A stretch of 64,000 nucleotides of DNA, taken from contig JAFEBQ010000026.1 in NCBI GenBank assembly GCA_018242585.1, positions 17,527 through 81,526 of the forward strand. The letters run 5' to 3'. Below are positions 1,625 through 26,482 of this stretch, piece by piece. Under the pieces are notes generated by a model. It did not search any database. It saw nothing but the letters and a program-made list of their open reading frames with translations, and was not told where the DNA came from. Source of the stretch: Planctomycetota bacterium (GTDB lineage Bacteria > Planctomycetota > Planctomycetia > Pirellulales > PNKZ01). The translations under genes were made by a program, and so were the position numbers. Position 1 is the first letter of the stretch; every line of letters begins with the position of its first letter.

Positions 1625-3244
1625 GTGGCAAAGCAATTGCTGTTCGAAGACCAGGCGCGTGCCAAGATGCTCAAGGGAGTTGAGAAGCTGGCCAGCGCGG
1701 TCGCCGTGACCATGGGCCCGACGGGCCGCAACGTGATCATCAACAAGTCGTTCGGCGGGCCGACCGTGACCAAGGACGGCGTCACCGTCAGCAAGGAAGT
1801 CGACCTGGAAGATCGCTTCGAGAACATGGGCGCCAAGCTCGTGAACGAAGTCGCTTCGAAGACTTCGGACATCGCCGGCGACGGCACCACCACGGCCACC
1901 GTGTTGGCCCGGGCCATCTTCAAGGAAGGCACCCGCAACATCGCCGCCGGTAGCAACCCGATGTCGGTTCGCCGCGGCATCGACAAAGCCGTGGCCGCCG
2001 CGATCGACCACCTGCGCTCGCTGGCCAAGCCGGTCAGCAGCAAGCAGGAAATCGCCCAGGTCGGTTCGATCAGCGCGAACAACGATCCGGAAATCGGCAA
2101 CCTGCTGGCCGACGCCATGGAAAAGGTCGGCAAGGACGGCGTGATCACCGTCGAAGAAGGCAAGGGAACCAAGACCGAGGTCGAGTTCGTCGAAGGTATG
2201 CAGTTCGACAAGGGCTACATCTCGCCCTACTTTGTCAATCGCCCGGCCGAGATGGACAGCCAACTCGAAGACGCGTACATCCTGATCCACGAAAAGAAGA
2301 TCAGCAATCTGCGCGACTTGGTGCCGCTGTTGGAAAAGGTGATCCAGGGTGGCAAGCCGTTGTTGATCATTGCCGAGGACGTCGAAGGCGACGCCCTGAC
2401 GGCCTTGGTCGTGAACCGGCTGCGCGGCGTGTTGAACATCTGCGCCGTCAAGGCGCCCGGCTTTGGCGATCGTCGCAAGGCGATGCTCGGCGACATTGCC
2501 GTGCTGACCGGCGGCACCCTGATCAGCGAAGACTTGGGCCTGAAGCTCGAGAACCTGACGCTGCAGCACCTGGGCCGCGCCAAGCAGATCAACGTCGACA
2601 AGAACAACTGCACGATCGTCCAAGGGGGCGGCAAGCAGTCGGACCTGCAAGCTCGCATTCAGCAGATTCGCAATCAGCGCGAAGCGACCGAAAGCGAATA
2701 CGATCGCGAGAAGTTCGACGAGCGGCTGGCCAAGTTGACCGGCGGCGTGGCCGTGATTTCGGTCGGCGCCAGCTCGGAAGCCGACATGAAGCAGACCAAG
2801 GCCCGCATCGAAGACGCGCTGCACGCCACTCGTGCCGCGGTCGAAGAGGGGATTCTGCCGGGTGGCGGCGTGGCGCTGTTGCGTTGTGCCGAAGCGGTCG
2901 AAAAGGCCCGCGCCTCGGCCAAGGGTGACGAGAAGATCGGCGTCAACATCGTGTTGCACTCGCTGTCGGCTCCGCTCAAGCAGATTGCCAACAACTGTGG
3001 CATTGACGGCTCGGTCGTGGCCGACGAAGTCAGCCAGAAGTCGGGCAACATGGGCTACGACGCCAACAAGGGCGAGTACGTCGACATGGTCAAGGCCGGC
3101 ATCATCGACCCGTTGAAGGTGGTCCGCAGCGCCCTGAGCAACGCGGCCAGCATCTCGGCGTTGATGCTGACGACCGAGGCTTTGGTCACCAACTTGGACA
3201 AGGACGATAAGGCCAAGAACCGCGTCGAAGGAAGCGTCCGCTAA
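1625..3244 (+). CDS. groEL: Chaperonin GroEL, copy 2 (no GGM tail)
   Basis: Complete 539-residue chaperonin. ATPase residues are conserved: TKDGVTV around residue 51 and [12 protein letters not shown] around residue 86. The canonical segment [25 protein letters not shown] is present. Unlike copy 1 it lacks the Met/Gly C-terminal tail and ends in a charged [14 protein letters not shown]. The start is GTG with an AGGAA Shine-Dalgarno about ten bases upstream; the second codon onward ([11 protein letters not shown]) fits the family. Sequence in the catalytic segments is closer to canonical GroEL than copy 1. Multiple groEL copies with differing tails are known in planctomycetes; a division of substrates between the two is an inference. 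Confidence 0.97.
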
Positions 3245-6313: not shown

Positions 6314-7183
6314 ATGAAAAAGCTTTCGAATGACCAGGCGACGATACTTCATGGCGATTGCCTTGAAGTGCTCGAAAGGGAAGTGAAAGACGAAAGCGTT
6401 TCCCTGGTCTTTGCCGACCCGCCCTACAACATCGGCAAGTCATTCGGCCAATTTCACGACAAATGGCCCTCCGACCGAGAGTATGCCGAGTGGTGCTTCC
6501 AGTGGTTGGCAATTTGCTTGAGAAAGCTCAAGGATGACGGAAGCCTCTACGTGATGTCGAGCACTCAGGCTATTCCGTATCTTGATCTCTGGCTGAGAGA
6601 AAGATGCAGCGTGCTGTCTAGAATTGCCTGGCATTACGACAGCTCGGGCGTCCAGGCGCGGAGATACTACGGTTCCTTGTATGAACCGATCTTGTTTTGT
6701 GTAAAGAACCCCAAAAGCTACACGTTCAATGCTGATGCAATTGAGGTCGAAGCCCGAACCGGCGCAGTTCGAAAGCTGATTGACTATCGCAAGGCAGCTC
6801 CGACTCCATACAAGACAACGAAAGTGCCTGGCAATGTTTGGTACTTCCCACGTGTTCGGTATCGCATGGAAGAATACGAGGAACATCCATCACAGAAGCC
6901 AGAGGCCCTTCTGGAGCGAATTATTCTGGCAAGTAGCAATCCTCGCGACCTAATTCTCGACCCTTTCTCGGGTACGTTTACCACCTGCGCTGTCGCCAAA
7001 CGACTCGGCCGCCAAAGCATAGGCATCGAGCAAGAGCGACAATACTTCAAGATTGGCGTCCGCCGCTTAGGACTTGCTGAAGAAGTTGACGGCGAAAAAC
7101 TGCAACCGCTCAGCAAAACTTACGTCCGAAAGAACCGCAAGCGTCGCGCGCTCTCACAGAATGGAATGTTATTCGATGACTAA
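6314..7183 (+). CDS. Adenine-specific DNA methyltransferase, YhdJ-like
   Basis: The 289-residue enzyme is a beta-class DNA N6-adenine methyltransferase. Catalytic motif IV DPPY is at residues 35-38, motif X HPSQKP at 191-196 and the SAM-binding motif DPFSGTFTT at 216-224, in the circularly permuted beta order. Long stretches resemble E. coli YhdJ as I recall it (for example YDSSGVQA, YGSLYEPIL, KVPGNVWYFPRVRY, EALLERIILASSNP). YhdJ is known to methylate ATGCAT, so that site is the best guess here (inference). Codon use is A+T-richer than neighbouring genes, consistent with transfer. The following gene starts inside its last codons, suggesting a type II restriction-modification pair. Confidence 0.93.
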   Translation: MKKLSNDQATILHGDCLEVLEREVKDESVSLVFADPPYNIGKSFGQFHDKWPSDREYAEWCFQWLAICLRKLKDDGSLYVMSSTQAIPYLDLWLRERCSVLSRIAWHYDSSGVQARRYYGSLYEPILFCVKNPKSYTFNADAIEVEARTGAVRKLIDYRKAAPTPYKTTKVPGNVWYFPRVRYRMEEYEEHPSQKPEALLERIILASSNPRDLILDPFSGTFTTCAVAKRLGRQSIGIEQERQYFKIGVRRLGLAEEVDGEKLQPLSKTYVRKNRKRRALSQNGMLFDD

Positions 7184-8357
7184 CTCTGTCCCTCGTCACG
7201 CATTTACGAATCAAATCGAGCAGATTCTCGAAAAGCACTTCGGCATTTTGGCTGCCGACGTTTTTACCGCGAGCCCTTTGCTAGGATATTTGAACCATAA
7301 AACCAGATCCGCAAGTCGCGGCTCGAAGTCACGTGGTGCGTTCGCAAATCACTACGCCCTTTACGTACTTACAGAAGACTATCTCGCGAACGGTTTTGGT
7401 CCTGGGGGCAAGCGACACGGGACGTACGACAAATATGGGGGAGCCAGGTTTAGCGACTTATTAAATCGACAGCGCGAGTTGCCATTCGGCAGTAAGCTAC
7501 AAAACCACGCCTTGAATGGACGACTCAATGACGAGTTCAAAAAGTTTTATCCGTCGGTCGAAAAGGAACCGATTGTTCGCGACGTGGCCAAGCAAGGCTA
7601 CTGGATTCAAGAAGACCTGCTCGTAGTCACGGTCCGAAATAGGGAAGGAAAAAGGCAAGATTTGAACATAGCTCCGTGCGTCATTGACATCATCGACGCT
7701 TACGTAGCTGCCAAGTGCGAAGCATTTGAGTCATTTATTGACTCTTGTGAAGAAATTTCCGCTCTACCAGAGACTGACGAAAAATCCGCAATTGCATTCA
7801 TCGAAGCCCAACTAAAGCCTGAAATCGACGCTCGTGTCTTTGAAATCGTCAGCTTCTCAATACTTAAAGCGTTTTACGGTGATCAAAGAATCTATTGGGG
7901 ATGGACACGTGATAATCTCAATGAAGACGCTCTTGTTCTCTTCAAAACGGGGCGGACGAACGCCAACGACGGCGGCATTGACTTTGTAATGCGGCCACTG
8001 GGCAGATTTTTTCAAGTCACCGAAACGATCGACGTCAATAAGTATTTTCTCGACATCGACAAAATCCAACGGTTCCCGCTGACGTTTGTCGTTAAGTCAA
8101 CGGATGGGCCAGCCGCAATCCAATCCGCGATTGAGGACCAAGCGAAGTCGAAGTACAAAATAGTTGCCGTTGTGAAGAGCTACATGGATGCGATCGAAGA
8201 AATCATCAACATTCCACTGCTAGTCGAACGCCTTCAATCGGTAATCAAAGCTGGCAAGATTCGCCTTGCCATGGATGAGATTGTCGTTCAGAGCAAAGTT
8301 GAATTTAATTACCAGGACACAGCAGAAGTTGTCGATGACATCGACGAGACAGATTGA
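7176..8357 (+). CDS. Putative type II restriction endonuclease paired with the YhdJ-like methylase
   Basis: The chosen ATG at 7176 overlaps the methyltransferase stop by eight bases; an in-frame ATG at 7161 is possible, but earlier starts run deep into the methylase. The 393-residue product has no motif I can name with certainty. Residues 265-283 (DGGIDFVMRPLGRFFQVTE) look like a nuclease core of the PD-(D/E)xK kind, with D269 and a Q-x-T in place of E-x-K. Overlap with a site-specific methylase and shared A+T-rich composition strongly imply a restriction role. If the methylase follows YhdJ specificity, the site would be ATGCAT. Function is inferred from context and should be treated as likely, not proven. 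Confidence 0.7.
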   Translation: MTNSVPRHAFTNQIEQILEKHFGILAADVFTASPLLGYLNHKTRSASRGSKSRGAFANHYALYVLTEDYLANGFGPGGKRHGTYDKYGGARFSDLLNRQRELPFGSKLQNHALNGRLNDEFKKFYPSVEKEPIVRDVAKQGYWIQEDLLVVTVRNREGKRQDLNIAPCVIDIIDAYVAAKCEAFESFIDSCEEISALPETDEKSAIAFIEAQLKPEIDARVFEIVSFSILKAFYGDQRIYWGWTRDNLNEDALVLFKTGRTNANDGGIDFVMRPLGRFFQVTETIDVNKYFLDIDKIQRFPLTFVVKSTDGPAAIQSAIEDQAKSKYKIVAVVKSYMDAIEEIINIPLLVERLQSVIKAGKIRLAMDEIVVQSKVEFNYQDTAEVVDDIDETD

Positions 8358-14218: not shown

Positions 14219-14596
14219 CTACTTGAAGTAGCGCTCGACCGCCGAGCCGTCTCCAACCAGGCGCACCTGATCGCCGACCTTCAGGCGACACGTCCCCGCC
14301 GGTAGTTCCAGCGTGGCGAACACATCGCCCGGGCCGGTGAACATCCGCCAAGGTTTCAACGACGATACCATGCTGACGACGCGTCCCGCTCGATCGAGCA
14401 TCACGACGTCGATTGGCGCGAGCATGAAACAGGTGTGGACCGAGCGGCACGGGACGATCAACAAGCCCGCGTCCGCAGCCAGCCGGCGCAGTTGCAACCC
14501 ACGGAAGCGCGGCCAGAACGAATCGGCCACCTCCAGCCGCGCGACGATCACCTCGCCCGTCGCCACCTGCACCAGTTGGTAACTGGGCGTCTTCAT
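14219..14596 (-). CDS. DUF192 protein, last gene of the Tad operon
   Basis: The 125-residue product matches DUF192: RFRGLQLRRLAADAGLLIVPCRSVHTCFMLAPIDVVMLDRAGRVV, then KPWRMF and a C-terminal LELPAGTCRLKVGDQV. Family members are small beta proteins, often secreted; this copy has no signal peptide visible. Its start overlaps the tadC stop by four bases, so it is translated with the pilus genes. The function of DUF192 is not established, and a role in pilus assembly here is inference from the operon. Confidence 0.88.
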   Translation of the reverse strand: MKTPSYQLVQVATGEVIVARLEVADSFWPRFRGLQLRRLAADAGLLIVPCRSVHTCFMLAPIDVVMLDRAGRVVSMVSSLKPWRMFTGPGDVFATLELPAGTCRLKVGDQVRLVGDGSAVERYFK

Positions 14597-15513
14597 CGCG
14601 CCGACTGGCTCATGCTGTCGAGGACGCGGAAGATTTCATAAAACGCCGGGCCCAGCGCCGACAGCAGCACGCCCGGCATGAAGCAGACGACCATCGGCAC
14701 CAGCAACTTGATCGGCGTCGACATGGCGAACGCCAGCGCCTGCTCCTTGCGGCGTTGACGCAGATCTTCGGCCTGAATCTTCAGCACGTCGGCCAGGCCG
14801 GCGCCGATTTGCTCGGCCTGAACCACGGCCGAAATGAAGATCGAAAACCAGGTCATCCCCACGCGCCGGCTCAGCCAGCGGAGCGAATCGACGCGCGGCC
14901 GGCCGGCCAGTACATCGCGCTGAAACGCGCTCAGCTCGCGTGGCAAGGTACGATGGGCCTCGAGCGAACCGAGCACCCGGTCGATGGCGCTGTCGAGCCC
15001 GAGCCCCGCTTCGGCCAACGTGGCCAGCAGGTCAAGCACCAGCGGCAGGTCTTCTTCGATCTCGCGCACGCGCTGCCGCCGTGCCGCACGGACTAAGAGT
15101 GTCGGAATCGACGCCAGGCAAACCAGCGCGATCCACGGCGCTCCGTAAATCAGCGGCAACGCCACGTCGCCGACGCCGCCGGGAATCGCTTGGGCCACGC
15201 GGGCCATTTGCGGCAAGTTGCCGTATAGGGTAAACGCCAGCGCCAGCAGTCCGCCGCCGATGCAAAACACTAGCGTGCTTCCCACATAGACCGCCACGGC
15301 GTTCGGGCCGCGACGGCCGGCCAGGAACAACCAGTGCTTGAGCCAGCCCTGCTGGTCCTCGGCCGGTAGCGGCTCGTTCGACTCTTGCTCGCTGAACAAC
15401 CGATCGAGCGTCCGCCCGCGCAAAGCTAATCGTTGCGCCGCCCAGGCAAATAGCGAGACCGCCGCCACCAGCAGCATTCCCAGCACCAGCAAGGTTTGGA
15501 TCGACGCAGGCAT
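14593..15513 (-). CDS. tadC: Tad pilus inner-membrane platform protein TadC
   Basis: The 306-residue protein has an N-terminal membrane segment (LLVLGMLLVAAVSLFAWAA) and a second near residue 75-100. A T2SF domain follows (LPLVLDLLATLAEAGLGLDSAIDRVLGSL... then FISAVVQAEQIGAGLADVLKIQAEDLRQRRKEQA), and the C-terminal hydrophobic pair is typical of TadC. With TadB it forms the GspF-like platform driven by the CpaF ATPase. The gene follows tadB after one base and overlaps the DUF192 gene by four, so it is firmly in the operon. Confidence 0.93.
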   Translation of the reverse strand: MPASIQTLLVLGMLLVAAVSLFAWAAQRLALRGRTLDRLFSEQESNEPLPAEDQQGWLKHWLFLAGRRGPNAVAVYVGSTLVFCIGGGLLALAFTLYGNLPQMARVAQAIPGGVGDVALPLIYGAPWIALVCLASIPTLLVRAARRQRVREIEEDLPLVLDLLATLAEAGLGLDSAIDRVLGSLEAHRTLPRELSAFQRDVLAGRPRVDSLRWLSRRVGMTWFSIFISAVVQAEQIGAGLADVLKIQAEDLRQRRKEQALAFAMSTPIKLLVPMVVCFMPGVLLSALGPAFYEIFRVLDSMSQSAR

Positions 15514-15514
15514 C

Positions 15515-16387
15515 TTAGAACCGGGGTTTGCTCAAGTAGGATATCCAGACCATGCCGACCGCTTGCAGCACGATGGCCACCGCGGCCAGCGACGCGCCGA
15601 CCGAGGTATCCAAAAAGTTCGCCATGCGCTCGGGATCGTTGCGCCACATCAGCACGGCAATGAAGTACGTCGAGCCCATGATCGCCACGATCGACGTTCG
15701 CGCCTGGGTGGTCAGCGCGCGCAGACGGCGCGAGACTTCGATCCGCTGGCGAATCGTCCGTCCCACGTTGGCCAACGTGCCGGTCAAGCTGCCGCCGACA
15801 CCCCAGTGGACCGACAGTGCCATGCTGAACAGCCGGAACGTTTCGAGTGGCACGCGCTCGGACAGCGCGTTGAAGGCCGCGATTGGGTCGTCCCCCAGGC
15901 GAATGCGCCCGAGCAACTCTTCAAGCTGCGGCTTCAGCGGCACCCGGGCTTCTTGCAACGCTTGCTCCAGCGCCACCGGCAGGGCGGCGCCAACGCGCAG
16001 CGCGCTGATCATCAAGTCGATCGCGTCGGCCAACTGGGCTTCGATCCGATCCGAGGTCCACGTGAGCAGCGCGGCGTCGAGTTGGGTTCCCAGCAAGCCG
16101 ACAATCGCCGCGAACGCGCCGGCAAAGGCCCACGGCAGCCCAACCACCCAGTGCAGCACCACCAACACCGCCAGGGCCACACCCCACGGAATCACGTAGT
16201 GACGCCGGGCGAACAGCCGCGGCGGCTCGTGTTCCTCCTCGGCCGCGGTTTCGGTCTCGGCCGTGTGCAGTCCTTCGTCCAGGCGCTCGAGCGTTCGGCG
16301 GCGCAAGGCAAAATGCCGCGCGGCGGCGATCGCGCCGGCGGCACTGCTGGCCAGAAAGAACAGCCCGAACCATAGCTCGCGCGTCAC
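15515..16387 (-). CDS. tadB: Tad pilus inner-membrane platform protein TadB
   Basis: The 290-residue product begins with a membrane span, has a charged stretch rich in Glu, then two further spans (VIPWGVALAVLVVLHWVVGLPWAFAGAFAAIVGLL). The T2SF domain follows (LADAIDLMISALRVGAALPVALEQALQE... SMALSVHWGVGGSLTGTLANVGRTIRQRIEVSRRLRALT). It ends in two hydrophobic segments. The start is GTG three bases after the cpaF stop. TadB and TadC form the inner-membrane base of the Flp pilus. Confidence 0.93.
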   Translation of the reverse strand: MTRELWFGLFFLASSAAGAIAAARHFALRRRTLERLDEGLHTAETETAAEEEHEPPRLFARRHYVIPWGVALAVLVVLHWVVGLPWAFAGAFAAIVGLLGTQLDAALLTWTSDRIEAQLADAIDLMISALRVGAALPVALEQALQEARVPLKPQLEELLGRIRLGDDPIAAFNALSERVPLETFRLFSMALSVHWGVGGSLTGTLANVGRTIRQRIEVSRRLRALTTQARTSIVAIMGSTYFIAVLMWRNDPERMANFLDTSVGASLAAVAIVLQAVGMVWISYLSKPRF

Positions 16388-16390
16388 CGC

Positions 16391-17827
16391 TTACCCCTTT
16401 TGAAACAGGGATATTGGGATGTCCTGGCCGCGCTCGCGCAGCTCTTCGACCATCCGTGGCACGACGCCCGTGGCGACAAACTCGCCTTGCACGGCGCGCG
16501 GCGTCCGACCGCGGCGCTCGAAGCGAAAAATCTCCTGCAACTGCGGCGTCAGCCCTTCCAGGCCGGTAATCTCGGCAATGCTTTCGACGCGGCGAACGCC
16601 ATCTTCGTAGCGGCGGACTTGCACGATGAGTTGTAGCGCCGAGGTCATCTGCTCGCGAATGGCTCGCGACGGCAAATCGACCCCCGCCATCAGCACCATC
16701 GTCTCGATGCGCGCCAGCGCGTCGCGCGGGCTGTTAGCATGGACCGTGGTCAGGCTGCCATCGTGGCCGGTGTTCATAGCTTGCAGCATGTCGAGGGCCT
16801 CGGGTCCGCGGACTTCGCCGACGATGATCCGGTCGGGGCGCATGCGCAGGGCGTTGATCACCAGGTCGCGCGCGGTGATCCGCCCGCGCCCTTCGATATT
16901 CATCGGCCGCGTTTCCATGCGGACGACGTGTTCCTGGTCGAGAACCAATTCGGCGGCGTCTTCGATGGTGACGATTCGTTCGTTGCCGGGGATTGCTTCG
17001 CTGACCGCCCCCAGGTACGTCGTCTTGCCCGAGCCGGTGCCGCCGGAGATCAGCACGTTGCGCCGGCCGATGACCACGGCCCGCATGAACTCAAGCATGG
17101 CCGGCGAATACATCTTCAGCCGCATCAGCTCGGTGCTATTCAAGCGGCGGCGGCCGAAGCGGCGAATCGACAGCGTCGGCCCGTCGATCGTGGCCGGCGG
17201 CAGCGTGGCGTTTACACGGCTGCCGTCGGTCAAGCGGGCGTCGACCATCGGCGAAGCGTCGTCGATGCGCCGGCCGATGCGGGCCGCGATCCGTTGAATG
17301 ATTCTGACCAGGTGTTCCGTATCGCGGAACCGGACGTTCGTCTGTTCCAGGCGGCCGAAACGTTCGACGTACACCATGTCCGCGCGGTTGACCAGGATAT
17401 CGGTCACAGCCGGGTCGGCCATTAGCGGCGCCAGCGGCCCGACGCCGAGCGTCTCTTCCAGCAAGTCATCGGCCAGCCGCTTACGCTCGTTGTCGTTGAG
17501 CGGCAGGTCCAGGTCGTCGAGCACTCGGGCCGTGAACGCCACCACGGCGTCGTGCAACGGCGCGTCGCCGGCCGTCAGCAAATTCTGGTCGTTCAGCTCG
17601 TCGAGCAACTGCTGGTGCAGCCGCGCCTTGACCATCTGGTATTCGACTCGGTCGGTGCGCGCGGCCGGCTCGGCCGCGCGGACGGCGTCGCTGGTCACGC
17701 GCGGGGCGCTGGAACGAATTCGCTCAGTCGGCAGCGCGTTGTGCGCGCGAATCAGCTTCTGACGCGAGTCGTCGTGGCTCGCCCCCTTTTCACCCTGACC
17801 AGGATTGCCAATGCCGTGGTCGTTCAT
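16391..17827 (-). CDS. cpaF: Tad pilus assembly ATPase CpaF/TadA
   Basis: The 478-residue protein is a secretion ATPase of the VirB11/PilT class. Walker A is GGTGSGKTT, followed by AVSEAIPGNERIVTIEDAAEL (Asp box region). The His box-like GHDGSLTTVHANSPRDALARIETMV and the Walker B region PDRIIVGEVRGPEALDMLQAM are present. The N-terminal domain has DDLLEETLGVGPLAPLMADPAVTDILVN, typical of CpaF. It hydrolyses ATP to drive pilin polymerisation. It overlaps cpaE by four bases and precedes tadB by three. Confidence 0.96.
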   Translation of the reverse strand: MNDHGIGNPGQGEKGASHDDSRQKLIRAHNALPTERIRSSAPRVTSDAVRAAEPAARTDRVEYQMVKARLHQQLLDELNDQNLLTAGDAPLHDAVVAFTARVLDDLDLPLNDNERKRLADDLLEETLGVGPLAPLMADPAVTDILVNRADMVYVERFGRLEQTNVRFRDTEHLVRIIQRIAARIGRRIDDASPMVDARLTDGSRVNATLPPATIDGPTLSIRRFGRRRLNSTELMRLKMYSPAMLEFMRAVVIGRRNVLISGGTGSGKTTYLGAVSEAIPGNERIVTIEDAAELVLDQEHVVRMETRPMNIEGRGRITARDLVINALRMRPDRIIVGEVRGPEALDMLQAMNTGHDGSLTTVHANSPRDALARIETMVLMAGVDLPSRAIREQMTSALQLIVQVRRYEDGVRRVESIAEITGLEGLTPQLQEIFRFERRGRTPRAVQGEFVATGVVPRMVEELRERGQDIPISLFQKG

Positions 17828-19038
17828 CGTGCGTCTCCACTGGCCACTGTTTCAGTCGTCGCGGCCTGCGCCTCGGGCTCGATCGGTGCGCCGGGGGCCA
17901 GACGCTCGATCTCGCGCACAATCTTCGCCAGATCGCGAGCCCGCTTGGTGAAGCGACCCGCGGTCAGCGCGAACGGCTCGCCGACGTTGGCGGCCGCGAT
18001 GATGCGACGGTCGAAGCGGACGATATGATCGACCGCTCGGCCCAGCCGCTCGGCCGCTTCGACGGGGCGGGGATTGCCGGCGATCCACTGCACGCGGTTT
18101 AGCACCAAGCGTTGCCGCTCGGCCGGCACGCCGAGTTTGTTCAGCAGTTGCAGCAGCTTGGCCGCCCCCAACAGCGTCGGTACGACGTTCTCGAATACCA
18201 GATACGTTAGATCGCTGAGATCGAGCACGGCCATTGCCACGCGATCGAGCGACGGGATCGTGTCGACGATCACATAGTCGTACGTCCGCCGGGCCAGCAC
18301 GAGGACGCGCGAGACCACCTCGTCGGTGATGTCGGCCCCTTCGATGGCGTCGGCCGGCGCGGCCAGCACGTGCAAGCCGCTGTGATGCGGGACCGCCAGT
18401 TGACGGATCAGCGTCTCGTCCAGCCGGTCGCGCTGGCGCGCGGCGTCGGCCAGCGTGGTCTCGGGCTTCAGATCGAGCAAACTCGCGCAGCCGCCGACTT
18501 GCAGACACGTGTCGACCAACAACACCCGATCGGGGCGCGTCGCCGCCAGACTGCACGCCACGTTGACCGACAAAGTGCTTTTGCCGACGCCCCCTTTGTT
18601 GCTCATGAAGCTGACCAGCCGGCCGACGCGCGACTGGCCAGTTTGACCCGCCTGGGCCAGGCGCTGGACCAGGGCGTCGACATCGCTGCTCGAAAGGGGG
18701 CGGCGCAAGAAGTCGCGTGCCCCGGCGCGAACCGCTTCGATCAACAGTGCGCTCTGCTGGGCTTCGTACTCGAACAAATCGGGACGATAGACGCCGACCA
18801 CGTGCGTGCGCGGCGACGCGGCCAATAGCTCGGCGATCTGCTGCCGGGCGAGCGCCAAGTCGGTGTCGATTTCCAAGAAGGCCAGATGCGGCTGCCAGAT
18901 GCGGGCCTGCTCGATGCCCGTGCGGCCGCCGGCGACGACGCGGATCACCGGCTCGATGGTGCGCACGGCGTTCAAGGCCGCCCGCGCTTCTTCGCCGAGG
19001 GAGCGATCATCACCAATGATCAAAACGTGCGGCTGCAT
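17824..19038 (-). CDS. cpaE: Tad pilus localisation ATPase CpaE/TadZ
   Basis: The 404-residue protein has an N-terminal receiver-like domain (residues 1-125: HVLIIGDDRSLGEEARAAL ... AGARDFLRRPLSSSDVDALV) that lacks a clear phosphorylatable aspartate pattern. A ParA/MinD-type ATPase domain follows with the deviant Walker A SNKGGVGKSTLSVNVA, then YDYVIVDTIPSLDRVAMAVL. This two-domain plan is that of TadZ/CpaE, which places the pilus machine in the cell. The ATG lies 24 bases after the tadG stop, in a G/C repeat without a recognisable ribosome site. Confidence 0.94.
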   Translation of the reverse strand: MQPHVLIIGDDRSLGEEARAALNAVRTIEPVIRVVAGGRTGIEQARIWQPHLAFLEIDTDLALARQQIAELLAASPRTHVVGVYRPDLFEYEAQQSALLIEAVRAGARDFLRRPLSSSDVDALVQRLAQAGQTGQSRVGRLVSFMSNKGGVGKSTLSVNVACSLAATRPDRVLLVDTCLQVGGCASLLDLKPETTLADAARQRDRLDETLIRQLAVPHHSGLHVLAAPADAIEGADITDEVVSRVLVLARRTYDYVIVDTIPSLDRVAMAVLDLSDLTYLVFENVVPTLLGAAKLLQLLNKLGVPAERQRLVLNRVQWIAGNPRPVEAAERLGRAVDHIVRFDRRIIAAANVGEPFALTAGRFTKRARDLAKIVREIERLAPGAPIEPEAQAATTETVASGDAR

Positions 19039-19079
19039 GAGGAAGGGGCTAGGGGCGAGGGATTAGGGGCTAGGGGGCA
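19039..19079. repeat. GGGGCTAG-type repeat between tadG and cpaE
   Basis: Units of GGGGCTAG, GGGGCGAG, GGGATTAG fill the 24-base gap and run into the 3' end of tadG, where the repeat provides the last four residues (PPSP) and the TAA stop. The same vocabulary ends rmlA and yggS at 28850-28972. Confidence 0.75.
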
Positions 19080-20607
19080 CGGCTACCGACACGGATCGAA
19101 CCAACGCGGGGGTGAGTACTCGATTAGTCAGTGCTTTGCCATGCAAGATCAACTCGCTGGCATTTACACCATCGTCGGGTCGGCGAATGAAAGCTGCGGA
19201 GACATTCTGCTGCATGACTTGACTTGGTTTCGGCGTCAACGAGAACGTGTCATTTTGGGGCAACGACAGCGTGACGAGACCAAATCCAACAACATACAAA
19301 GTAGTTGATGTTTCGCCGCTTACTGGTTTCTGGATTAACGGGACGATCGTTGCCCAAGTGCTCGTTCCGGACGAGTCAGCGAGCATGCCAACGCTGGTTG
19401 AGCCGGCGAACATCGAGCCAACGAAGGAGGTCGGAGCACATGTGCCACTGCTCAAGGTCATTCCAGCGCTCATCGTCGAAGTCTGGCCGCCGTTCGTGAC
19501 AAAGCCGATCTGGCCTGTCGGCGTACTAATTGTCCCGTCGGACGCTACCGTGGCTAATGAAGATGTCCCGGCGCTAAGCAAGGACCAGGAATTTGCGTAA
19601 ATCGCAAACGGAGCTGCCCCGACGATACCGTATTTATCAAGATCGGTTGGTTCATCAGGAAGCGGGAGTGTCGGCGAGATCGCGGCACCAACTGACAAGG
19701 CCATGACGGCATCGGCGATCGCCGTCGCGCGAACTTTGATGCCTGTTGCGCGCTGATTCCAAAACGCCGTGGGATCAGCCGAACCTCCGATGCCGGCGCG
19801 TCCAAAGAAATACGGGACGGTAGGACCGGAGGAGGATTCCAGGTTGTCGCTGAATGTCTCGCCGGTGCGCCTTAGACGTGCCAGGAAGCTGCTTGCAGTC
19901 GATGAGTGCGTAGCATCGCTGGCTGGTGTGAAGTCGTAACGCGAATATGGATCGCTGCTCTCCACCTGAGGTTCTGCATGATAAGCCGCGGGGCTCAGCG
20001 ACTGGTACGTGTCGGCAATGCTGCTGTCGGTCACGAATTGTCCCGCGACCAGATCACCCGATGCGACATTCGACGGATTCATTTGCAGCGACACACTCGT
20101 TGCGGCATCGAGCACCACGGTTTGTGAGGCGTAGAAGTCGGTGCCGGGCAATTGCATGCCACCGGTTAACGTCAGCGTTTGGCCATTGGTCGTGCGTGTA
20201 TAGGTCGGCATTACTGTGGCAGCGGCGGAACTAGCTGCGATTCGCCGTGCGTTTTCGCGCCACGTGACAAATTCTGGTGAATCAGTGCCGGGGGGATCTC
20301 CCACTGCCGGCCACAATACGCCGGTCGCCCACGCGGAGCTACCGTCTAGCCAATCGCTAGGGACGTTATCACGGTACCGCAAACCTTCGAGCGCGGCGGT
20401 ATTCACGGCCGACTGCATTTGCCGGCGGGCGACGAAGGCTTGGCCCAGGTCGGCTACGAGCGCCGCGAACGCGAAGATCACGAACACGAAAATAGCGAAC
20501 CAGATCATCGCCGAGCCGCGGCGAAAACGTCGCCGCGAACGATCAGATTTTGCTCGAATACGAGAGCGATTGGTGATTTGCTGCTGGACAGTAATAGGCG
20601 TGCTCAC
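19063..20607 (-). CDS. TadG-like pilus protein
   Basis: The 514-residue protein has a basic N-terminus (RSRRRFRRGSAM) and one membrane span (MIWFAIFVFVIFAFAALVADLGQAFVARRQMQSAVNTAALEGLR), the hallmark of the TadE/TadG-like N-terminal domain. The remaining 450 residues are a long exported region rich in Ser/Thr with no recognised domain. The last residues PPSP and the stop codon are provided by the intergenic GGGGCTAG repeat. Its GTG start overlaps the tadE stop (GTGA). Likely a minor pilin-like or envelope component of the Flp pilus. Confidence 0.82.
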   Translation of the reverse strand: MSTPITVQQQITNRSRIRAKSDRSRRRFRRGSAMIWFAIFVFVIFAFAALVADLGQAFVARRQMQSAVNTAALEGLRYRDNVPSDWLDGSSAWATGVLWPAVGDPPGTDSPEFVTWRENARRIAASSAAATVMPTYTRTTNGQTLTLTGGMQLPGTDFYASQTVVLDAATSVSLQMNPSNVASGDLVAGQFVTDSSIADTYQSLSPAAYHAEPQVESSDPYSRYDFTPASDATHSSTASSFLARLRRTGETFSDNLESSSGPTVPYFFGRAGIGGSADPTAFWNQRATGIKVRATAIADAVMALSVGAAISPTLPLPDEPTDLDKYGIVGAAPFAIYANSWSLLSAGTSSLATVASDGTISTPTGQIGFVTNGGQTSTMSAGMTLSSGTCAPTSFVGSMFAGSTSVGMLADSSGTSTWATIVPLIQKPVSGETSTTLYVVGFGLVTLSLPQNDTFSLTPKPSQVMQQNVSAAFIRRPDDGVNASELILHGKALTNRVLTPALVRSVSVAVPPSP

Positions 20608-21722
20608 TGGCCGAATACCTCGCGGCGGTAGACGCCTTGCCCGCTGACCACGCGGCGAAACGGTCGCACGCCATTTGGTGCTGCACTGCCCCAGGCGACC
20701 ATCTGGCCCAGGCCGTATTCGCCTGCGTATGCACCAAAACCGCTGCCGCTGCTACCCGAGCTTTGTGTCGCCAGGGTATATCCACTTAACGAGTTGGTGA
20801 ACGAAACGTGGGAATCATCCGCCAGAATCGGGGTCGTCGGAGCGGTCGACGCCACCATTGGGTTCGTGGCCGATGGTTGATAAGCGATCAACCCCGCGGC
20901 TTGGAATGGGTAATTGATTCGTAGCCGTACGGTGCCAGGCAGGATCCCCGAAGTCGTACCAGAAGTAATCGGCGCCGACGCCGTCACGCTAAAGCTGCCG
21001 GTCACGCTTGCGTCTAAGCTTCCATAGGTTCCCATCTCTTCGACCACGCCATGCCACGCATATTGGTTTGGCCCTTCGGCCATTAAAACTCGAACGGTCG
21101 TTTCGCCTTGTTCATTTTTCACGACGGTGCCGGGGTATCGATACGCGCCGAGCCCGGCGTCGTAAAACATCACGGGCACGAGCAGTTGGTTGATCAGCGG
21201 CATATACTTTGCAGCGTATTGCGTAAGCGTTAGTCCAAGTTCCGACAGCGTTGACGACGGCACCACCAGAAGCGCCTCGTTGAATATCTGCTGGCGTACC
21301 GCGAGGAGCGGGTCAGTTGAATTTGGATTGTTAAGGTCGACGTAGCGGTAAAGCACATGATTCAATGTTGGAAACGCATACGAGTCATTGCTGTTAGTGC
21401 CCGTCGGATTCAGCGGCATGCGGGACAACTCTTGCGCGCCGACGTCGGCGGCTTGTTGCACGACCTGGGCGGCGAAGAACATCTGGCCCATCGACAAGAT
21501 GGCCGCGAACAGGAACGTCAGCGCCAGGGCGATGATCGCGAACTCGACCAGCGCCTGACCGCGGCGCGTCCGACGGCGATTCACGCGCGCAATCAAATAT
21601 GATTGCGCAGTCGGTTTCTCGCGCGTCGCGGCGCACACAACGGTTCGCCGGAACGAAAACGCCCACGGCGACCCCTCCGTGGGCTGCGTCAAGCTATCGG
21701 TAGCTGGCGTCATGCGCGTCAC
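20604..21722 (-). CDS. TadE-like pseudopilin
   Basis: The product has a basic stretch followed by GQALVEFAIIALALTFLFAAILSMGQMFFAAQVVQQAADVGAQELS, the TadE domain with a prepilin-like processing site (RRTRRG before QALVE). The mature part is long (over 300 residues), Thr/Ser-rich, with no further domain recognised. The start is a GTG at 21722 overlapping the cpaB stop, or an ATG at 21713; both leave about 45-50 residues before the processing site, which is long for a pseudopilin leader. It overlaps tadG by four bases. Confidence 0.82.
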   Translation of the reverse strand: MTRMTPATDSLTQPTEGSPWAFSFRRTVVCAATREKPTAQSYLIARVNRRRTRRGQALVEFAIIALALTFLFAAILSMGQMFFAAQVVQQAADVGAQELSRMPLNPTGTNSNDSYAFPTLNHVLYRYVDLNNPNSTDPLLAVRQQIFNEALLVVPSSTLSELGLTLTQYAAKYMPLINQLLVPVMFYDAGLGAYRYPGTVVKNEQGETTVRVLMAEGPNQYAWHGVVEEMGTYGSLDASVTGSFSVTASAPITSGTTSGILPGTVRLRINYPFQAAGLIAYQPSATNPMVASTAPTTPILADDSHVSFTNSLSGYTLATQSSGSSGSGFGAYAGEYGLGQMVAWGSAAPNGVRPFRRVVSGQGVYRREVFGQ

Positions 21723-22822
21723 CTGTCGGCTCGTGCCGTGCGGCGCGGCGAATCACGATCGATCCGTGTCGGCGGCGTGGGAATCGCGGTGCCGGCCGGC
21801 TGGGCAGTGGCCGGTTGGCTCATCACCGGGGGCGGAGCTTGCACCGGTGTTGCGGCCTTGTTGGGAGCAATCGCCGTCGCCGGCTGAGTGGCCGCCTCGG
21901 CTGGGTGAGCGCCGAAAGACTCGGCGCCGAACGCCCGGCCGCGCACCGTTTCCACCGTCCGCACGTGCTTCAAAGGATCAAGTTCAGGCACCTCGGTATC
22001 GTGGGTTTCCTCGGGACGTCCCGAGCGGGCCACGCAGAATAACGACGCCTTGGTCGACAACGCCTCGGTCAGCGGCGCGATTTCATCGGGATCGAGCGCG
22101 ATGGTCATGTCGCGCATGGGGTCTTTCTTACCACCGCCACCGACCAAGGGGTGCGAACGCCCGCCGTCCGGCGAAGCAGTTTCGTCCGCCGCCCGGGTCA
22201 CCACACGACCATCACTGACCATCACCTTGACGCTGGCGTCTTTGCCGCCCCCTTTGACACCGCCAGCGCGAACGCTGGGTTGCAGATGGCTTGTCTCGAC
22301 CGGCTCGCTGGCCAGCAGGTCGAAGCGGTCGCCGATGCGCAAATCCTTCAGCCCTCGCACCTGGTTGGCGTCGAGTGTCATCGCCCGCTTGCCGGGCGGA
22401 ATGCCCGCCACGACCCCCGGCCGGGTGCCGACGGGCATGAAGTCGCGCTCGGTAAAGGCGTAGCCGGGCTGCTTTTCGCGGGCCATCACGCGGCCGATGA
22501 TCTTGTTGTGGTCGGTGATGAAATCGGTCGGCACCTTGTCGGGCGGGTAATGTAGAACACGCGTTACCAAGGTGCCGGGCGTGGCCATGTGGTCGCGCGT
22601 GACCACGGCATAGATCGGAATCGCCGTTCCCGACAGCGGCACCGCCACCATGCCGGCATAGGGATCGCGAGTGGCCTTGCGGTTGAATTCCGACAGATCG
22701 ATGACGCCAAAGGCGACCAGTCCGACCAGCGTGACGCCCACGCCCAGAACCAAACCCGAAATGGCGACAAACGCGCGCTTCAGCGCCGAAGGACGACGAT
22801 AACCAGCGGTACGGCTTTTCAT
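21719..22822 (-). CDS. cpaB: Flp pilus assembly protein CpaB
   Basis: The 367-residue product has one N-terminal membrane span (FVAISGLVLGVGVTLVGLVAFGV) and a SAF-like domain (AGMVAVPLSGTAIPIYAVVTRDHM ... GRVMAREKQPGYAFTERDFMP, then GIPPGKRAMTLDANQVRGL and IGDRFDLLAS), which is the CpaB/RcpC layout. The C-terminal 80 residues are Ala/Pro-rich and probably disordered. It is the first gene of the eight-gene operon and overlaps tadE by four bases. In most Tad loci the secretin gene follows cpaB; here tadE does. Confidence 0.9.
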   Translation of the reverse strand: MKSRTAGYRRPSALKRAFVAISGLVLGVGVTLVGLVAFGVIDLSEFNRKATRDPYAGMVAVPLSGTAIPIYAVVTRDHMATPGTLVTRVLHYPPDKVPTDFITDHNKIIGRVMAREKQPGYAFTERDFMPVGTRPGVVAGIPPGKRAMTLDANQVRGLKDLRIGDRFDLLASEPVETSHLQPSVRAGGVKGGGKDASVKVMVSDGRVVTRAADETASPDGGRSHPLVGGGGKKDPMRDMTIALDPDEIAPLTEALSTKASLFCVARSGRPEETHDTEVPELDPLKHVRTVETVRGRAFGAESFGAHPAEAATQPATAIAPNKAATPVQAPPPVMSQPATAQPAGTAIPTPPTRIDRDSPRRTARADR

Positions 22823-23137: not shown

Positions 23138-23482
23138 TTAGGTTCCGTCGGTCTTGTCGGCCACCAGCGGGGTGCCGCCAGCGCTGCCGCCAGGCAAGCC
23201 CAAGGTGTTCGTCGCGCCCACGTCACCCGGTGTCCCGGCCGAGACAATCACACCACCGCTGCTGGCCTGAGTGGCAATCAACTTGCCGACAAAGACGCGG
23301 CCTTGGTCATCGGCATCGTCACCCGGCAGCAGGGCGGCGACGTCCCCCAACAGGTCACCGGCCTTGTGGCCGAGCATGGTGGCGGCCACGAGGCAGACCA
23401 GGGCGACGGCGCCAATCATGATGGCGTACTCGACCATGGCCTGACCGCGGCGGAACTTGGTGGCATTTACACGGCGAATCAT
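23138..23482 (-). CDS. Flp/Fap-type pilin 1
   Basis: A 114-residue prepilin. The leader MIRRVNATKFRRG ends at a type IVb processing site: Gly13 then QAMVEYAI, with Glu at +5 and Tyr at +6. A hydrophobic helix follows (MIGAVALVCLVAATMLG). The mature protein continues with about 70 residues rich in Gly/Ala (ALLPGDDADDQGRVFVGKL...), much longer than the 50-60 residues usual for Flp pilins. The start at 23482 is set by a GGAGG site nine bases upstream. It is nearly identical in its 3' part to pilin 2, indicating recent duplication. A good sigma-70 promoter lies upstream. Confidence 0.93.
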   Translation of the reverse strand: MIRRVNATKFRRGQAMVEYAIMIGAVALVCLVAATMLGHKAGDLLGDVAALLPGDDADDQGRVFVGKLIATQASSGGVIVSAGTPGDVGATNTLGLPGGSAGGTPLVADKTDGT

Positions 23483-23552
23483 GCGAAAAACCTCCAACTA
23501 GGGTAAAAATGGGCTTAAACATGAAACTGAGACTCAGTATCAACAGTGGCGG

Positions 23553-23580
23553 ATTCTACATGTTCCTTTCGGCGTGTCAA
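23553..23580 (-). promoter_or_regulatory. Sigma-70-type promoter of pilin 1
   Basis: Reading the minus strand, TTGACA (23580-23575), a 16-base spacer, and TAGAAT (23558-23553). The predicted transcript would have a leader of about 65 bases before the pilin 1 ATG at 23482. This is the best consensus promoter noticed in the window. Confidence 0.75.
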
Positions 23581-23601
23581 CGCTATCGGGCAAAAAACTT
23601 T

Positions 23602-23943
23602 TTAGGTTCCGTCGGTCTTGTCGGCCACCAGCGGAGTGCCGCCAGCGCTGCCGCCGGGCAAGCCCAGCGTGCCTGCGGCACCCACGTCACCCGTCGTGCC
23701 GGCCGAGATGATGATGCCGCCCGAACTCTGCGACGTCGCGATCAGTTTGCCCACGAACACGCGGCCTTGGTCGTCGGCGTCGTCGCCCGGCAGCAGCGCC
23801 GCCACGTCGCCCAGCAACGCCCCCGCCTTGTGTCCCAGGATCGTGGCCGCCACCAGGCAAACCAGCGCCACGGCGCCGATCATGATGGCGTACTCGACCA
23901 TGGCCTGACCGCGGCGGTGGCGAACATTCTTGCGTCGTAACAT
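23602..23943 (-). CDS. Flp/Fap-type pilin 2
   Basis: A 113-residue prepilin, leader MLRRKNVRHRRG, processing site Gly12 then QAMVEYAI (Glu +5). The hydrophobic helix is the same as in pilin 1, and the C-terminal region differs at only scattered positions. DNA identity with pilin 1 is especially high over the last 60 bases, right up to the stop codon. The ATG at 23943 has an AGGAG site. It lies 119 bases upstream of pilin 1 on the same strand. The pair probably arose by tandem duplication or is kept similar by gene conversion. Confidence 0.93.
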   Translation of the reverse strand: MLRRKNVRHRRGQAMVEYAIMIGAVALVCLVAATILGHKAGALLGDVAALLPGDDADDQGRVFVGKLIATSQSSGGIIISAGTTGDVGAAGTLGLPGGSAGGTPLVADKTDGT

Positions 23944-24159
23944 CGTTTCAACTCCTGGGGTCATGAAAGCGGAAGCCAGGCTCCGTCGTTGGGGCCTTTC
24001 TGACCCTGACGACGGATCGACGTTGGTTTCGTTTCACGCTACCTCGGAAGTTCTGCCCCCCCAGAAGTTCTTCAGCCAAATCTGACTCGGCGCGACCCAG
24101 CCGGCGGAAGCAATGTTCCACCGGCCGGGCCGAATGCACCGAGCAAAGCAACCTGACGA

Positions 24160-24486
24160 CTACGACCCGGAGCCCGATGGCACCGTGTCGGTTACCAGAT
24201 TCCCGTCGACGTTGATTCCCAGGCTCGCGGTGGCCGAGCCGGGGACGCCGGCGACGCCGATGACGCCGCCGGAGTTCGTCGTTTGCACTAGTTCGCCGCT
24301 GAAGATGGCGCCCGTGGTGTCGGCGTCATGGCCGGGCAACAGGGCGGCGGTAATGCCGACCAGGTCCGTGGCCTTGTGTCCGAGTAGCGACAGCGCGCCG
24401 ATTCCCACCAGGACGACCGCCCCGATGATGATGGCGTATTCGACCATGGCCTGACCACGACGGTTGCGGAGGTGCTTGTTCAACAT
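24160..24486 (-). CDS. Flp/Fap-type pilin 3
   Basis: A 108-residue prepilin, leader MLNKHLRNRRG, processing site Gly11 then QAMVEYAI. The helix is IIGAVVLVGIGALSLLG. The extended C-terminal region follows the same plan as in pilins 1 and 2 (ALLPGxxAD..G.IF.G.L..T...GVI), but the sequence groups with pilin 4. An AAGGA ribosome site lies before ATG 24486. It stands alone between pilin 2 and the Cys-rich gene. Whether it is co-transcribed with pilins 1 and 2 is unclear. Confidence 0.92.
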   Translation of the reverse strand: MLNKHLRNRRGQAMVEYAIIIGAVVLVGIGALSLLGHKATDLVGITAALLPGHDADTTGAIFSGELVQTTNSGGVIGVAGVPGSATASLGINVDGNLVTDTVPSGSGS

Positions 24487-24734
24487 GGAAAATATCCTTC
24501 AAAGGTTGATAGATGAAAAAAGCAAAACACGGTCGCGAGGCGCAGCGCATTGCGCGCTGTCACGACACGACATAGTGTGGCGCGCACGGGTGAGCGCTGG
24601 ATCAATACCGATCAAGCGCATTGACATCGTGCGATTCGCCGCGATGGACAGACTAATGGCCCGATTGCGCCCGCGCCTGGACGCATTGCCAGGCGCGGAA
24701 TCAACAGCCGCCGGTAGCCGATAGCGAGGAGCGA

Positions 24735-25334
24735 TCAGGCCCTGCGCGGCGGGGGGATTGGTGGCTGGGCGGGTTCGCCAGACGCCACCTGATAAAGAGT
24801 CGCGGCTTGAGCGACCAAGGGCCATTCGGCGGCCCAGGAGATCTGAATTGGTGGAGGGAGCGACGCGCCGACCACGGCCCACAGGTTTCCTTGCCCCTGG
24901 CATTGGCGCGCCGCGATGGCCGAATACCAGACTAGTGTTTCGCTGGATGCCGGCTGGGCTTCGGGGGAACTCGTCTGAGCACCGCGTTGCTCGCAAGAGG
25001 AACGCTGTTGGCAGCACGATTGCTTGGCGCTGGCGGGCATGCTCACGGCGGCCACGATCGGCGCTGGCAGCCATTCGGGTGGCACGATCACGTTGTTCCG
25101 CTTGGCCCAGGCCAAACGCTGGGCCGGCGTGTGGCAGCAGCAATTGCGCCAACAGTTTTCGGCCGAGTGGCAACCACAGCCATGTGCGGCGCAGGGATAC
25201 GCTTCGCCGGTCGGATTCAACACCAGGGACGGCATGGGCAGCCCCACGGCCGCCGCGCCGAACGCGGCCAAAACCAGCCAAACAGCGCCGGTTCGAATCG
25301 AGTGTCGCAATTTCGATGTCCGCGTTCGGACCAT
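24735..25334 (-). CDS. Cys-rich exported protein, unknown function
   Basis: A 199-residue product from ATG 25334 (a TTG at 25340 also fits). The N-terminus has a signal-like or membrane segment (IRTGAVWLVLAAFGAAAVGLPM). Then comes a dense cysteine block at about residues 45-75: CAAHGCGCHSAENC, then WRNCCCHTP and AQRLAWAKRNNVIVPPEWL, followed by CCQQRSSC. The CWRNCCC..RLAWA pattern is something I associate with small planctomycetal proteins near metal-handling genes, but I cannot name the family. Metal binding is plausible from the Cys/His content. It lies between pilins 3 and 4 and has an upstream promoter-like element shared with the His/Cys-rich gene at 26074. Confidence 0.7.
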   Translation of the reverse strand: MVRTRTSKLRHSIRTGAVWLVLAAFGAAAVGLPMPSLVLNPTGEAYPCAAHGCGCHSAENCWRNCCCHTPAQRLAWAKRNNVIVPPEWLPAPIVAAVSMPASAKQSCCQQRSSCEQRGAQTSSPEAQPASSETLVWYSAIAARQCQGQGNLWAVVGASLPPPIQISWAAEWPLVAQAATLYQVASGEPAQPPIPPPRRA

Positions 25335-25399
25335 CGTCAATTCGCCGTTGGCGACTCGCGAGAGGAAGCCAGGGAATGTCCAGGGTTGCTAGCGTCATC

Positions 25400-25428
25400 A
25401 ATCTAGAGGTTCGCCCGTAGGCTCGCAA
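25400..25428 (-). promoter_or_regulatory. Promoter-like element A, shared with 26556-26583
   Basis: On the minus strand: TTGCGA, 17-base spacer, TAGATT. The spacer carries the block CCTACGGGCGAACCTC, which matches the second copy at 14 of 16 positions. The predicted leader to the Cys-rich gene is about 55 bases. The block may be an operator or simply shared ancestry. Confidence 0.6.
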
Positions 25429-25561
25429 GCTGCCCATAAGGAGTGTGCGGAACGGGGGCGCAAAGTCCCCCGAGCGCCGCGCCGTTGGGCACGGCACTCG
25501 GGAAAAAGCGTGACTCGCCAGGACTAGCCCGACGGAGGCGAAGTTGGCGACTCGTAGAGCG

Positions 25562-25885
25562 TTACGAGCCGGAGCCGTCGGCGGTGTCGCTGACCAGGGT
25601 GCTGCCGTTGGCAATGCCCAGGCTGGCCGAGGTCGAGCCCGGCGTGCCGGTCACGTTAATGACGCCGCTTGAGTTTGTGGTTTGCACCAGCTCGCCGCTG
25701 AAGATCACGCCGTTGTCGTCGGCATGGGCCCCCGGCAGCAAGGCCGTGGTGATGCCGACCAGATCGGTGGCCTTGTGCCCCAGCAGTGACATTGCGCCGA
25801 TTCCCATCAGGACGACCGCCCCGATGATGATGGCGTATTCGACCATGGCCTGACCGCGACGCGAATTGTGAAGTTGCTTCGACAT
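25562..25885 (-). CDS. Flp/Fap-type pilin 4
   Basis: A 107-residue prepilin starting at ATG 25885 with a GAAAGG ribosome site; upstream in-frame residues are unlike a prepilin leader and are left out. Leader MSKQLHNSRRG, processing site Gly11 then QAMVEYAI. It is closest to pilin 3 (VVLMGIGAMSLLGHKATDLVGI, then ALLPGAHADDNGVIFSGELVQTTNSSGVI). It sits upstream of the Cys-rich gene, so the two pilin pairs are separated by non-pilin genes. All four share the long Gly/Ala-rich C-terminal region. Confidence 0.92.
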   Translation of the reverse strand: MSKQLHNSRRGQAMVEYAIIIGAVVLMGIGAMSLLGHKATDLVGITTALLPGAHADDNGVIFSGELVQTTNSSGVINVTGTPGSTSASLGIANGSTLVSDTADGSGS

Positions 25886-26073: not shown

Positions 26074-26478
26074 TTACGAAGCCAACTGCGGCGGCCCGCG
26101 GGCCAGATACGCCTCGGCCGCGCCCGACGGCAGCCGTAGGACGTTGGGAGAATGACTGGCGGCCGCGGCGAGTTCGGCCACCGAGAAGTGAAGCTGAACG
26201 GCCTGGGCTTGCGCCTGGGCCTGATACCGGCAAATGGGGCAATCGCCGGGTGCGTGCCACGAGGCCGACGAAGCAATGCCTTCGCCTTCAACGCTGTGGT
26301 CCTGGTCATGATCGGCGTGGGAATGACCAGCCTCGGCGTGGTCGCAGCCGGCGACCGTTGTGACATGGCAATCGTGATGACAGCCGGCCAGTTCGTGCCA
26401 GCCCATCCCCACGAGCGCACAGAGGGCGTAGCTGACCAACGTCAGCGCGCCGAGCAACCGTTTACGCCGGAAGAACAT
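26074..26478 (-). CDS. His/Cys-rich exported protein, unknown function
   Basis: A 134-residue product from ATG 26478 (preceded by an in-frame GTG). A basic N-terminus and hydrophobic stretch (LLGALTLVSYALCALVGMGW) look like a signal anchor. Then comes a His/Cys-rich block, GWHELAGCHHDCH with CDHAEAGHSHADHDQDH, followed by DCPICRYQAQAQAQ. The His cluster and CPIC motif suggest binding of a divalent metal such as zinc or copper (inference). No family is named with confidence. The upstream region holds a promoter-like element shared with the Cys-rich gene at 24735 and three 15-base tandem repeats. Confidence 0.7.
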   Translation of the reverse strand: MFFRRKRLLGALTLVSYALCALVGMGWHELAGCHHDCHVTTVAGCDHAEAGHSHADHDQDHSVEGEGIASSASWHAPGDCPICRYQAQAQAQAVQLHFSVAELAAAASHSPNVLRLPSGAAEAYLARGPPQLAS

Positions 26479-26482
26479 CACT

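Follow-up and report, generated by a model that had tools for sequence, protein, structure and literature searches.

The four long prepilin genes found in the window (the whole 64,000-nucleotide stretch of planctomycete DNA analysed here) are probably copies of the major pilin gene of a distinct Tad pilus lineage, with the C-terminal region of the pilin lying on the filament surface. The long pilins apparently constitute a conserved pilin subfamily that is tied to its own Tad lineage and has gone undescribed; a search of openly accessible papers turned up none that deals specifically with planctomycetal Tad/Flp pilins. Membership of this lineage is defined by a full-length match to the long-pilin profile together with a TadA belonging to a 22-member clade, and the window locus has both.

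All four genes are read from the minus strand. Long pilin 1 (P0001, 23138..23482) has 114 aa, 101 in the predicted mature form; long pilin 2 (P0002, 23602..23943) has 113 aa (mature 101) and long pilin 3 (P0003, 24160..24486) has 108 aa (mature 97), each assigned from its open reading frame and a profile match, and long pilin 4 (P0004, 25562..25885) has 107 aa (mature 96) and a full-length profile match of 113.9 bits. These translations agree exactly with the lengths and coordinates given for four prepilins in the first-pass annotation, and the processing site that it described as shared is RRGQAMVEYAI in 4/4. A Shine-Dalgarno-like stretch (GGAGG/AGGAG/AAGGA/AAAGG-like) lies 6–12 nt 5' of each start. 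In every case the motif is followed by a hydrophobic helix to about residue 50, a Pro-Gly, and then 55–62 further residues, so that the class III prepilin motif G|xxxxEY and hydrophobic helix of Tad/Flp (type IVc) pilins are present in all four. The processing G and mature Glu5 and Tyr6 are invariant among 32 homologues. The genes do not form a compact block, a 201-codon Cys-rich ORF lying between pilins 3 and 4.

Flp pilins are reported to have 50–80 aa (PMC12075869, PMC10934763), a wider range than the 50–60 residues taken as ordinary in the first-pass annotation, and the major Flp pilin of Myxococcus, KilP, has 97 aa and a predicted structure that is alpha-helical throughout (PMC12075869). 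The size range is thus a description and no strict criterion. The window pilins, at 107–114 aa, depart from the usual description of a Tad pilin as a wholly helical protein of 50–80 aa with no added domain. Like KilP they exceed the usual length, but in a comparison based on the published description of KilP their C-terminal region differs in being Gly/Asp/Val-rich with beta-like propensities. The Caulobacter Tad pilin has a mature length of 45 residues and consists of one helix without a globular domain (PMC11067988). The window pilins share with this pilin (PilA; 8u2b, 8u1k) the G|xxxxEY site, the single N-terminal hydrophobic helix and the Tad gene neighbourhood, whereas their mature forms, at 96–101 residues roughly double the normal length, carry a conserved C-terminal region. 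Short Flps (61–67 aa) of the same genome and phylum likewise have the Flp helix and Tad machinery, but they differ in a mature length of 44–50, a EDGPTAVEYAVMLALI motif and association with other TadA clades. The QxxxEYxxx signal is also that of archaeal class III signal peptide proteins (PF04021); the match covers the signal helix only, and the window pilins, unlike those proteins, belong to a bacterial Tad locus. Scores against PF04021 are 18–21.5 bits, under its cut-off of 23.7, with 15/32 homologues matching at E<0.01. None of the window pilins reaches the cut-off of 32.2 for PF04964 (Flp_Fap), three scoring 14–17 bits and pilin 4 being unlisted, and 21/32 homologues match that family at E<0.01 (best 1e-8).

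The C-terminal region begins at P53 in pilin 1 (23141..23326), P52 in pilin 2 (23605..23790) and P51 in pilins 3 (24163..24336) and 4 (25565..25735), all on the minus strand. Its consensus across the 32 homologues is LPGAHxDDNGPIxSGKLIETTxxxxGxIxLD...RLxxNLGxxxxLVVE. The shared C-terminal skeleton noted in the first-pass annotation is more than chance similarity, because each window pilin, reduced to its C-terminal half without the helix, matches 21–26 of the 28 C-terminal halves taken from homologues at E<0.01 (26/28 for pilin 4), whereas shuffled controls give 0–2/280. No entry in Pfam, NCBIfam or the PDB spans the region; the PDB match, to the solved Tad pilin 8u2b (profile E=0.001), runs along the helix alone. 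Modelling, which the first-pass annotation had proposed for this region, bears out the helix and leaves the remainder poorly defined: in two AlphaFold runs with different first sequences the helix is confident to residue 49–51 and pLDDT is <50 beyond, from an alignment of the four window pilins that is too shallow to separate a folded head from a flexible tail.

The low pLDDT means that the C-terminal region could be flexible, and an acidic extension without a fold, such as a coat of charge or a tail bearing glycans, would also be consistent with the net negative charge (−3 to −12) of all 32 homologue C-termini. A Chloroflexi protein of 230 aa (L019:147-839), in which a Flp-like helix is followed by a different, long Thr/Pro-rich tail, offers a parallel for such an extension. 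Residues 51–69, on the other hand, approximately match the helix in conservation (mean column entropy 1.21 vs 1.12 bits), and conserved positions continue to the C-terminus (G64, T69, G90, L97, V98). Disordered tails seldom preserve such a pattern, and an unfolded extension is regarded as unlikely. Simple propensities point weakly to short strands around IVSGKL, GxIxLD and LVV and to no long helix. Since the C-terminus of the helix faces outward in the Caulobacter Tad pilus (PMC11067988), this outward orientation and the conservation together suggest that the region is likely an added surface domain.

The profile was built from the 32 homologues and searched against 392 genomes of the host phylum, representing 267 genera. 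Full-length matches were obtained in 32 of these genomes, belonging to 25 genera and ∼15 families, and amount to 41 copies, mostly one per genome and sometimes two; four occur only in the window genome. Every match at E<=1e-9 spans nearly the whole profile, and the weaker matches elsewhere are confined to the helix. Elsewhere in the window genome there are four short Flp genes (59–61 aa), and the pilins of other host-phylum Tad loci, where recognised, have 61–67 aa (mature 44–50). The sample took in two further phyla, with Verrucomicrobiota among the phyla outside it: 548 genomes, 297 from the phylum of a 'Deltaproteobacteria' MAG and 251 from that of a Chloroflexi MAG, gave helix matches only, ending at profile positions 40–83 and mostly before 65. 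The idea that the C-terminal region is general to Flp pilins, which the first-pass annotation had named as fatal to its proposal, is ruled out by its absence from the ordinary Flps of the host phylum and from these 548 genomes; the proposed planctomycetal subtype is upheld by its presence in ∼15 families and its tie to one TadA clade. A contig scan based on the alignment of the four window pilins selected patterns from the helix alone, and all its matches were relatives of the helix; scans of viral contigs and of plasmids gave nothing. Because no Pfam or NCBIfam model exists, long-pilin genes are probably scattered through databases as hypothetical proteins. Five DUF1559 (PF07596) proteins accord with the planctomycetal assignment made in the first-pass annotation; this family is abundant in Planctomycetota and was missing from 14 control genomes.

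In the window the long pilins head a Tad locus in which the co-encoded machinery typical of Tad/Flp systems is present, all of it on the minus strand: CpaB/RcpC (21719..22822; TIGR03177 E=4e-12 and PF16976, both under the curated cut-offs, and syntenic in relatives), the pseudopilin TadE (20604..21722; PF07811 E=1e-7), a TadG-like protein (19063..20607; PF13400 E=3e-8), the CpaE/TadZ ATPase (17824..19038; AAA_31 E=5e-18), the motor ATPase TadA/CpaF (16391..17827), which falls in the long-pilin TadA clade, and TadB (15515..16387) and TadC (14593..15513), both named from position and homology and having syntenic homologues in relatives. The TadE C-terminus GLG...VRPFRR.VSGQ..YRREVF is common to the window and other long-pilin loci. 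Directly past TadC lies a DUF192 gene (14219..14596, minus strand; PF02643 E=2e-16), as also in the long-pilin loci L050, L051, L056, L057, L064 and L101. No secretin was recognised next to the window Tad locus; the best match in the window genome to the secretin of the locus in G393, the nearest relative and a member of the same family, is at contig C2:20796 (443 bits), and the outer-membrane channel has therefore probably been relocated. Nor was a prepilin peptidase gene recognised beside the window pilins, where many relatives have one. Elsewhere in the window, an N6/N4 DNA methylase gene (PF01555) and an overlapping 427-codon ORF without a Pfam match (6314–8357, plus strand) look like a type II restriction-modification pair, and two adjoining genes that are GroEL-like by sequence appearance occupy 4–1113 and 1625–3244 (plus strand), the former being truncated at the edge of the window.

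The Tad loci of relatives (∼20 genomes) have the order pilin, often prepilin peptidase (PF01478), TadE, CpaB, TadG, CpaE, TadA, TadB, TadC, sometimes rearranged and in many cases with an adjoining secretin. TadA scores are bimodal, 551–1025 bits in long-pilin loci and <=476 in every other TadA. A tree of 57 TadAs places the 22 from long-pilin loci on one side, and the 35 others on the opposite side, of a branch of length 1.09 with support of 100/100; the two groups were set by score, and pilin type agrees with them independently. A full-length long pilin is present in 20/22 clade loci, the other two being cut by the contig end exactly at the expected pilin place, and in 0/35 non-clade loci. 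One genome (G327) has a long pilin with an in-frame stop (L150:10845-11099), no other recognised Tad genes nearby and no clade TadA that the search could find; this locus is probably decaying, as if pilin and clade TadA had been lost together. The pairing of long pilin with clade motor is not absolute, since in another genome (G024, L052) two intact long pilins accompany TadV (prepilin peptidase), CpaB, a secretin and TadE, and no clade TadA was found in that genome.

Myxococcus Tad pili combine several minor pilins with a distantly encoded major pilin (PMC12075869), and by analogy with KilK/KilO the long proteins might be minor or tip pilins, or adapters, of a filament built from a short Flp encoded elsewhere. 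The window genome, with its four short Flp genes, could accommodate such an arrangement; it contains, besides the long-pilin locus, two further TadA loci, and a short Flp is present in one of these or in both. Among relatives, by contrast, no Flp-type pilin besides the long one was recognised in its locus, where it stands at the place normal for a major pilin, those short Flps that can be placed go with other TadA clades in separate loci, and a single TadA scores above the threshold in G319, G325, G276, G335, G240, G066 and other long-pilin genomes. A minor-pilin role is thus considered improbable, and assignment of the long pilins as major pilins is preferred.

The four window copies form one clade (support 97/84) whose neighbour is the pilin of G393, and they were therefore duplicated within their own lineage. 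As the first-pass annotation recognised, they fall into two close pairs, with 88% identity for P0001/P0002, 75–76% for P0003/P0004 and ∼50% across pairs. The paralogues might be antigenic or ligand variants, only a single type of filament being made at any given time and the exposed region diversifying, as would fit the more rapid divergence of the C-terminus than of the helix (pN 0.22 vs 0.03 in pilins 3/4). Promoter-like sites precede pilin 4 (sigma70-like, 25940-25912, minus strand) and pilin 1 (TTGACA-16-TAGAAT, 23580-23553, minus strand) and would permit separate expression, although they are weak evidence, 2 having been found vs 0.6 expected by chance. In both pairs dN falls well short of dS, in the helix as in the C-terminus, so that purifying selection dominates the C-terminus even though it is the more relaxed of the two. 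Variation of this kind is possible but rather doubtful; it is compatible with the major-pilin explanation and touches copy number only. The filaments of mixed subunits suggested in the first-pass annotation may exist, but the single copy in most relatives, four being found only in the window genome, speaks against mixing as a general requirement.

Small Cys/His-rich ORFs, probably secreted and without a Pfam match, adjoin the window pilins at 24735-25340 and 26074-26481 (both minus strand). Similar or analogous ORFs (L151:5345-5791, L056:7327-7836 and L057:6445-6942) directly precede the long pilin in G393, where the match is weak (E=6e-4), and in two genomes of the same order, where they are DUF2946-like and His-rich. 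Genes for a ZIP transporter, a FUR family regulator and a CobW GTPase are found within a few kb of the long-pilin loci L050, L052, L056 and L057, but such metal-homeostasis genes do not accompany long pilins across the whole host phylum, and no E. coli-type Zur boxes were found near long-pilin loci at <=3 mismatches. A more elaborate proposal, of a separate Tad lineage whose major pilin has a genuine folded head against the rule for Tad pilins, with a four-subunit heteropolymeric filament in this organism and perhaps, in view of the ZIP, FUR, CobW and His-rich genes adjoining several loci, some connection to the supply of metal (zinc), is judged rather unlikely.

Under the preferred reading, in which the four genes are copies of a major pilin, the long pilins would be processed, exported and polymerised. 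The motif predicts prepilin cleavage at RRG|QAMVEY, after which the N-terminal hydrophobic helix would pack into the core of the filament, as such helices do in other Tad pili. The acidic C-terminal ∼55–62 residues past the Pro-Gly hinge would project outward on the filament surface, presumably as a small folded head that probably contains beta structure. Gene content points to assembly by the TadA/B/C motor, CpaB and TadE/G of the same locus, and the filament would exit through a secretin encoded elsewhere in the genome, likely that at C2:20796. The four copies are most likely interchangeable or conditionally expressed subunits, which is the weakest step of the scheme. The likely role, by extension from Tad pili in general, would be attachment to surfaces or particles.

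In current descriptions Tad pilins have no globular domain of the sort with which other type IV pilins bind ligands and phages. An exception that is conserved and linked to its own motor would, if true, mean that a Tad filament can carry decoration over its length. Planctomycetes have pili-like polar fibres (PMC8303584), the composition of which is apparently not established, and the long pilins would be concrete candidate genes for these fibres.
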